Source: Methanobacteriota archaeon (GTDB lineage: Archaea; Thermoplasmatota; Poseidoniia; Poseidoniales; Thalassarchaeaceae). Taken from it: a stretch of DNA of 64,000 nt. Shown here one piece after another: positions 14,584 to 16,089 of this stretch. The position numbers were made by a program, and so were the translations under genes. The DNA lies in assembly GCA_018654845.1 (NCBI GenBank), contig JABIKU010000034.1:1-64000 (forward strand), written 5' to 3'. Each line of letters begins with the position of its first letter. Position 1 is the first letter of the stretch. Under the pieces are notes generated by a model, which worked only from the letters and a program-made list of their open reading frames with translations, ran no database searches and was not told the origin of the DNA.

Positions 14584-14850
14584 ATGTCTATCGAGAACTC
14601 AAACACTAGTCCCGTCGAGGATAAAGTCCAAGGTTGGCAAGATAACATTGAGGCTCGTGTTCGTGGAATCCAAACCGGTCCTTACGCACGAATTCTGAAA
14701 ATGGCTCGTAAACCATCCAAAGAAGAATTCCGACAGACTGTAATCGTTTGCGGAATTGGAATGTTCATCCTCGGTGGAATCGGTTTCGGAATGCTATATT
14801 TAATGGATAATTTACTTCCATCATTCTTTGCTTGGCTTATTGGTGCATGA
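14584..14850 (+). CDS. secE: Preprotein translocase subunit SecE (Sec61-gamma)
   Basis: Small tail-anchored subunit of the SecYEG/Sec61 channel, 88 residues. A charged cytosolic helix with the KMARKPSKEEF motif (about residues 38-48) precedes a single membrane segment (about 53-85). This lysine-rich amphipathic helix followed by one transmembrane helix is the family hallmark. I use the ATG at 14584, which has GAGGGTC a few bases upstream; a frame extending to 14536 lacks support. It sits directly before spt5, the conserved archaeal secE-spt5-rpl11 arrangement. Confidence 0.9.
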   Translation: MSIENSNTSPVEDKVQGWQDNIEARVRGIQTGPYARILKMARKPSKEEFRQTVIVCGIGMFILGGIGFGMLYLMDNLLPSFFAWLIGA

Positions 14851-14859
14851 GGTGTAATA

Positions 14860-15726
14860 ATGTCAGACACATTTACTGTTTATCTTCGTAACGACGAGCA
14901 AATTTTGCTGATGCAACGCGCTGACGAGGTCGCTGATTTCGCAGGTGCTTGGGATGGAATCTATGGTATCGGAGATCCTACTGATATCGATGTAGTCATC
15001 GCTCGCATCACCGAGTCTACTGGAATCCCCGCAGATCAGCTCGAGTATGTTCGCTCCGGCGACGCTCGTGGCCTCGCATTTGGAAACCGCTTGAACGATG
15101 TCACCCCACTACTATTCCTCTCAGGAACTAACGAAGTTACTCCGAAGACCCTCTACAAGGGCTTCGAGTGGGTTGACCCAGGTACTATTCGCCAGAAGGA
15201 ATACGCTACTCCAAAGTTGCGAGAAATGTATGGTGACGTTGCTTCTTTCCTCTACATTCTCAAGACCAGTATCGGCCAAGAACAAAACGTCGCTCGAGAG
15301 ATTCAAGCACGCCTTTCTGGCAGTGGATCTCTCGAAGACATTCAAGGCGAAATTTTCGGGGTTCTTTCACCGAATTTTATGCGAGGATATATTTTCGTTG
15401 AAGCTTCCGCACTACATCACGTTGAGAAACTCATCGGACGCGTTGGAGTCGCTGCGACTCCAATGAAAAATTGTAGAAAGGTTCTCGACGGAGAATCGCC
15501 ACTAGAAGATGTTCTTCCATATTTAGAGCCGAAGGCTGCTACAGCTGGAATCGAAGAAGGCTGTATTATCGAAATCAGTGGTGGCGCATTCAAGGGTCAA
15601 TCTGCTCGCGTAGTTCGTGTTACTGAATCCAAGGAAGAGGTCACAGTCGAACTCTTCGAAGCTCTCGTGCCGGTCGCTCTGACTGTGCGCGCTGACCAAG
15701 TTCGCGTTACCCAGCGCGTTGAGTAA
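14860..15726 (+). CDS. spt5: Transcription elongation factor Spt5 (NusG) with N-terminal Nudix-like domain
   Basis: The C-terminal half (about residues 129-288) is a normal archaeal Spt5. An NGN domain (FLYILKTSIGQEQNVARE to the YIFVEA strand) binds the RNA polymerase clamp with Spt4, and a KOW domain (GIEEGCIIEISGGAFKGQSA) links to the ribosome. The first 125 residues are extra. They read as a Nudix fold: an ILLMQRAD strand, GAWDGIYGIGDP where a Nudix GG-loop would be, a helix ARITESTGI matching the REUxEExGU box, and a closing FEWVDPGTI strand. The catalytic Glu residues of the box are not conserved (Arg and Ser in their place), so a non-catalytic binding module is likelier than a hydrolase. 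Usual archaeal Spt5 is about 150 residues; this is 288. Confidence 0.9.
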   Translation: MSDTFTVYLRNDEQILLMQRADEVADFAGAWDGIYGIGDPTDIDVVIARITESTGIPADQLEYVRSGDARGLAFGNRLNDVTPLLFLSGTNEVTPKTLYKGFEWVDPGTIRQKEYATPKLREMYGDVASFLYILKTSIGQEQNVAREIQARLSGSGSLEDIQGEIFGVLSPNFMRGYIFVEASALHHVEKLIGRVGVAATPMKNCRKVLDGESPLEDVLPYLEPKAATAGIEEGCIIEISGGAFKGQSARVVRVTESKEEVTVELFEALVPVALTVRADQVRVTQRVE

Positions 15727-15810: not shown

Positions 15811-16089
15811 ATGTCAGCAAGAAATGAAACACCACACAAAGTGAATCAAACTCTTGGCGTAAAGAAGTGCAATGGCTCCTGGGAAGAAGCAACTGAAAAC
15901 TTGACAATGGTTCAAGTTAAACAACTTGCTGAAGAACAAAAGGATCGGTTAACCGGTGCTGATTTGTACGCACGTAGCCGTGAAATTATGGGCACGTGTG
16001 TTTCTATGAGAGTCAAGGTTGAGGGTTTCGAACCAAAAGAAGCACTCAAGAGAATGAGCGAGGGGGAATTCAGCGAACACTTTAGCTGA
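15811..16089 (+). CDS. rpl11: Ribosomal protein L11, C-terminal domain only
   Basis: 92-residue protein corresponding to the rRNA-binding C-terminal domain of L11. Matching features are the linker, the helix TMVQVKQLAEEQKDRL, GADLYARSREIMGTCVSMRV and the archaeal C-terminal extension VEGFEPKEALKRM. Archaeal L11 is normally about 155-165 residues. The entire N-terminal domain, which contacts translation factors, is absent. The 84-base gap after spt5 cannot hold it. The ATG at 15811 has a strong site, ACAGGAGG, 7 bases upstream, so the short form is the real product rather than a missed start. Position before rpl1-rpl10-rpl12 confirms identity. Confidence 0.85.
   Translation: MSARNETPHKVNQTLGVKKCNGSWEEATENLTMVQVKQLAEEQKDRLTGADLYARSREIMGTCVSMRVKVEGFEPKEALKRMSEGEFSEHFS

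Follow-up and report, generated by a model that had tools for sequence, protein, structure and literature searches.

Results

Gene organisation of the Spt5 locus

The window analysed here is a stretch of 64,000 nucleotides (contig JABIKU010000034.1, assembly GCA_018654845.1) from an archaeon of the Thalassarchaeaceae, order Poseidoniales. ORF 14860-15726 (+) encodes Spt5 (288 aa), the one transcription factor common to all life, and lies between the genes for SecE and ribosomal protein L11 (Table 1). Residues 131-286 constitute a normal Spt5 (TIGR00405, 112.7 bits vs. a cut-off of 69.95), with an NGN domain and a single KOW domain whose Pfam match is slightly below the gathering score. This core matched the P. 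furiosus Spt5 (2.5e-24, phmmer), and the closest solved structures are the Pyrococcus and Thermococcus Spt5. Spt4 (PF06093) was encoded in 39/40 relatives, including the genome analysed here, and FttA is encoded as well, indicating that the usual Spt5 machinery is intact.

Between its alpha and beta elements, the NGN domain has an insertion that is specific to the clade (approximately 15430-15480 in the window and 1575-1640 in L072). It comprises about 8 residues in one family and about 17 in the other (GRSGGRDPAARRGLNQTP), and is not present in the Thermococcus Spt5.

Table 1. Features of the spt5 locus (coordinates refer to the window) and Spt5 loci carrying a different N-terminal domain.
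Feature	Coordinates	Strand	Evidence or remarks
SecE, upstream of spt5 (9 bp gap)	14584..14850	+	PF00584 2.4e-5; gene order kept in L061, L072, L098, L137
Degenerate Nudix domain (predicted), residues 1-122	14860..15225	+	AF2, Foldseek, HHalign, Pfam NUDIX
Degenerate Nudix box, residues 36-56, GIGDPTDIDVVIARITESTGI	14965..15027	+	RE changed to A-R49, EE changed to E52-S53
Nudix-NGN joint, residues 118-128	15211..15243	+	C-terminal helix and Y124-G125-D/S-V127
NGN domain, about residues 130-226	15247..15537	+	PF03439 4.5e-11, TIGR00405 1.4e-32, PDB Spt5 matches
KOW domain, about residues 230-288	15547..15723	+	PF00467 3.1e-4, TIGR00405
Ribosomal protein L11 without N-terminal domain, operon of spt5	15811..16089	+	PF00298 only, no PF03946
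Spt5 loci with APEW...GARYGD domain			L038, L039, L058, L081-L092, L096, L204, L206, L207, L209

The N-terminal domain of Spt5 has a predicted Nudix fold

The preliminary description of this DNA had proposed that about 125 residues with the Nudix order of elements precede a normal NGN-KOW, and the layout was borne out by AlphaFold2, Foldseek, HHalign and TIGR00405. AlphaFold2 modelled the N-domain, using 34 homologues, with the strand/helix order of Nudix proteins (mean pLDDT 81, pTM 0.77), so that the claim about the fold withstood structure prediction. The best 50 PDB matches listed by Foldseek were all of Nudix fold (probability 1.00, query TM-scores approximately 0.55-0.78). HHalign of the N-domain against a catalytic archaeal Nudix family gave a probability of 99.2 (E = 3.5e-19, 115 columns). 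Residues 1-126 alone matched the full length of Pfam NUDIX slightly below the gathering score (E = 0.0014), and the same family was matched in 11/19 Poseidoniales relatives (best 2.2e-6). A sequence profile search of the PDB with the N-domain placed Nudix proteins first, weakly (best E = 0.022). The agreement between the AlphaFold2 model, the Foldseek matches and the profile matches indicates that this is no chance resemblance, and the N-terminal ~122 residues of Spt5 are predicted to fold as a Nudix domain. Replacement of Spt4 by this domain was ruled out, as Spt4 is present.

An internal translation start at MYGDV (around residue 124), which would leave the domain untranslated, was considered and rejected. 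The ATG at 14860 is located 9 bases after the SecE stop (14850) and has an SD-like GAGGTG 5 nt ahead of it, while no SD-like motif was found in the sequence ahead of the internal start at 15226. TTG codons are able to start translation; the position of M123 is occupied by leucine in the seven relatives examined, encoded by TTG in four and by CTC or CTA in L180, L183 and L188. Moreover, room for another gene is lacking, and purifying selection acts on the sequence upstream of the internal start. For the closest pair, dN/dS of the N-domain was 0.107 and that of the NGN-KOW part 0.017; in distant pairs, pN of the N-domain was 0.11-0.34 with pS saturated. The N-domain evolves faster than the Spt5 core, yet it is under clear purifying selection, and we count it as translated.

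The Nudix domain is a fixed trait of Poseidoniales Spt5

Almost all of the matches in the nearest genomes (59 of 60 matched) were end to end, and the named records among the retrieved relatives include Thalassarchaeaceae and Thalassarchaeum. In the phylum sample, the N-domain profile was matched in 83 Poseidoniales genomes belonging to both families. Five further Poseidoniales genomes lacked a match: in three the assembly contains no Spt5, and in two Spt5 is cut at a contig end. What had been described for a single genome is thus a fixed trait of the whole order, and an assembly artefact or single-genome oddity is ruled out by the 83 genomes, the two families and the many assemblies. None of the eight sampled genomes of the sister order in the same class (probably Marine Group III, judging from taxonomy) had a Nudix domain on Spt5, and the three sister-order Spt5 loci that were sequenced have only a short acidic tail at the N-terminus. 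The fusion survey covered the Thermoplasmatota.

The Spt5 N-domains were monophyletic, on one side of the tree (support 100/100). Given this monophyly, a single fusion in the Poseidoniales stem would be the simplest history.

One Poseidoniales genome (G033) has an additional, incomplete Spt5 at the start of contig 36 (L099); it is of the sister-order type, lacks a Nudix domain and is probably contamination.

Ribosomal protein L11, encoded by the next gene after Spt5, lacks its N-terminal domain across the Poseidoniales (also in L072, 2000-2290, and L061, 1990-2295). PF03946 was above the cut-off in 0/40 Poseidoniales genomes, where the C-terminal PF00298 was found in 39/40, and it was present on L11 in 12/12 genomes of the sister order and other Thermoplasmatota. 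The loss of this domain maps to the branch of the Spt5-Nudix fusion.

In many other Thermoplasmatota families, Spt5 starts with an unrelated domain of about 120 residues (motif APEW...GARYGD, Table 1), which is probably an Ig-like beta-sandwich. Its group profiles matched each other (HHalign 94-99.8 in 4/6 comparisons) and not the Nudix profile, and Pfam gave only weak matches, e.g. NPCBM_assoc. An identity of the Nudix domain with the N-terminal extension of other Thermoplasmatota Spt5 was rejected on these grounds. Unrelated domains, at least two of them, have thus been added to the Spt5 N-terminus within a single phylum.

Parent family and substitutions in the Nudix box

The N-domain profile matched catalytic Nudix proteins across the Thermoplasmatota (E down to 7e-17), which appear from these profile matches to be the closest relatives of the Spt5 N-domain. 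Some of them stand alone, e.g. L197 in a sister-order genome (G062). A recent copy from the Nudix genes of the same genome is unsupported, since its own paralogues match the Spt5 N-domain profile only at E ≥ 0.01.

In several Thermoplasmatota a catalytic Nudix domain lies behind an AcnX swivel domain (L198, L199, L200, L224, L230; PF01989 confirmed for L199, sequence likeness for the other four). These fusions perhaps have a role in isoprenoid or nucleotide metabolism.

Residue columns were compared between 52 Spt5 N-domains and 24 catalytic relatives. The four glutamates E40, E52, E55 and E56 are invariant in the catalytic relatives, and D-W-E-H ahead of the last strand is present in 24/24 or 23/24 of them and gone from the Spt5 copies. 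The intact box (GX5EX7REUXEEXGU) was not found in the 52 Spt5 N-domains; in the window it reads A48-R49-I-T-E52-S53-T-G55. The RE glutamate is replaced by Arg49 in 51/52 Spt5 N-domains, and the second EE glutamate by Cys, Ser, Ala or Val at position 53, where no Glu occurs. The first EE glutamate is kept as E52 in 47/52, and the upstream glutamate is mostly Asp, as in the window Spt5. The loss of catalytic glutamates in the preliminary description thus holds for the RE glutamate and the second EE glutamate, but E52 remains and the upstream position is mostly still acidic (Asp).

Other positions became newly fixed in the Spt5 N-domains (D32, G38, R49, R70, G71, Y99, Y124 and G125). The arginines R10, R49 and R70 are nearly invariant, and with a net charge of -8 to -19 the domain is strongly acidic. 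As read from the alignment, this residue pattern is that of a repurposed site and not of decay.

The joint between the Nudix and NGN domains

Y124 and G125 were present in 52/52 N-domains, and V127 is invariant. In the full-length model, helix 118-127 runs nearly straight into NGN strand 130-135. Overall confidence in this model was low (pLDDT 70, pTM 0.53), making the relative placement of the domains unreliable; the weakness stems from prediction alignments drawn mostly from one family. The segment just ahead of the joint (residues 111-122) is variable, with insertions in some genera, and could be a flexible tether.

Discussion

Archaeal Spt5 is described in published reviews and structures as an NGN domain plus one KOW domain (PMC3382729, PMC11616081), and the main text of a 2026 elongation-factor survey does not mention Nudix (PMC13289920). 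The preliminary description knew of no Spt5 with a Nudix-NGN-KOW layout; likewise, no description of an Spt5 with a Nudix domain was found in the literature searched, coverage of which is incomplete. Spt5, Nudix proteins and degenerate Nudix sensors were already known; what appears to be new is that they are combined and that the combination is fixed in an order. The Poseidoniales, an abundant marine order, have a third, folded Spt5 domain. It derives from an enzyme, the catalytic site of which was taken apart as new residues were fixed. Within this one phylum, the N-terminus of Spt5 acquired unrelated domains in different lineages.

We propose that a catalytic archaeal Nudix gene was joined in frame to the beginning of spt5 in the Poseidoniales ancestor, that its active site was dismantled afterwards, and that the domain persisted as a binding module without catalytic activity. 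The NGN of the T. kodakarensis complex bridges the polymerase and contacts the non-template strand immediately upstream of the bubble, and the KOW holds FttA (PMC11616081). From the NGN position in that complex we infer that the Nudix domain hangs at the NGN N-terminus, where the C-terminal helix and the invariant Y-G-x-V joint would tie it. The grip of Spt5 on RNA polymerase would keep the domain above the polymerase cleft. A small molecule or a partner would bind in the former Nudix pocket, remodelled with R49, E52, R70 and Y99 at its centre, and binding would shift the helix entering the NGN and thereby change elongation, pausing or factor recruitment. Pocket binding, allostery and the effect on transcription are steps modelled on analogous proteins. 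We give a probability of roughly 0.5 to the reading of the Spt5 N-domain as a binding module that has a pocket but no catalytic activity, resembling NrtR/AraR. A more specific version, about which we are tentative, is a metabolite-gated general elongation factor, in which the pseudo-Nudix pocket on every transcribing Poseidoniales polymerase binds a nucleotide-like metabolite. If true, elongation or termination would be set genome-wide by the metabolic state of the cell, through the helix into the NGN.

The conserved residues of the N-domain may serve only to maintain the fold or for protein docking. A protein-docking scaffold that recruits a ribosomal protein, FttA, the RNAP stalk or a chromatin protein, without any small ligand, is the leading alternative, somewhat less likely than the pocket reading. 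The acidic surface of the domain would suit such a scaffold. So would the other N-terminal extensions of Spt5 in the phylum, which are acidic tails or the unrelated beta-sandwich, as if several solutions had been tried; Spt5 is moreover a known recruitment platform (PMC3382729). The newly fixed D32, G38 and R49, however, map to the loop and helix that were once catalytic, a better fit to a pocket. The purely structural reading, in which the domain stabilises the NGN or Spt4/5 and binds nothing, draws on the very short joint with its fixed Y124-G125-x-V127 and on the high conservation of buried positions. It does not account for the charged residues that became fixed at the former active site, and sister lineages manage without a Nudix domain, so that we regard it as highly improbable.

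Two further readings relate to what Nudix proteins do elsewhere. The preliminary description had suggested sensing of a nucleotide or of capped or 5'-triphosphate RNA, for which the argument is one of analogy. It also placed the domain on a complex that couples RNA polymerase and ribosome, a coupling taken from general knowledge of Spt5/NusG. A reader of nucleic acids or RNA 5' ends, like CFIm25 or a dead RppH, binding nascent RNA or non-template DNA, would agree with the nearly invariant arginines and with the presence of RppH and other nucleotide-binding Nudix proteins among the Foldseek matches listed; CFIm25 binds RNA despite a degenerate Nudix box (PMC3695940). RppH was no nearer than other Nudix families, though, the domain shows no tie to RNA ends, and its strong negative charge argues against simple RNA binding, which makes such a reader unlikely. 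Continued enzymatic activity, in which E52, D39 and other residues of a rebuilt site would carry out another kind of hydrolysis, is less likely still. Some Nudix enzymes deviate from the box, and E52 and D39 are acidic in most sequences. Against this, two of the four invariant glutamates are lost, one of them to a fixed arginine at a metal-binding position, and the invariant DWEH of the parent family is gone.

The binding-module reading suggests that global elongation control in the Poseidoniales could accept input from a ligand or a partner, an idea that this 122-residue domain, with its known parent enzymes, makes directly testable.

Comparison with known systems

Poseidoniales Spt5 shares with the archaeal Spt5 of P. 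furiosus (3p8b) and T. kodakarensis (9bct) the NGN and KOW domains, the SecE-Spt5-L11 neighbourhood and an Spt4 in the genome. The known archaeal protein begins at the NGN, whereas the Poseidoniales protein has the 122-residue Nudix domain first, together with the NGN insertions. The WEHTEY-type Nudix proteins of the Thermoplasmatota, stand-alone or AcnX-fused, are homologous to the Spt5 N-domain end to end and have L16, R20, W31, G36, E52, G55, L85 and W104 in common with it. They differ in that the parent type has the four catalytic glutamates and DWEH, most of which the Spt5 copy has lost while fixing R49, R70, Y99 and the NGN joint. CFIm25/NUDT21 likewise has a Nudix fold without catalytic activity and works in machinery linked to transcription, but it is a separate RNA-binding subunit, and no sequence closeness to the Spt5 N-domain was found. 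The bacterial NrtR/AraR regulators also begin with a degenerate Nudix domain, which has lost two or three glutamates and is joined by a helix to a transcription module. In BtAraR, L-arabinose is bound in the cleft of such a domain, with two or three glutamates lost, and a hinge helix passes the movement on, turning the DNA-binding domain (PMC4666351). The C-terminal part of NrtR/AraR, which form homodimers, is a winged helix that binds DNA, whereas that of Poseidoniales Spt5 is the NGN-KOW of a general elongation factor.
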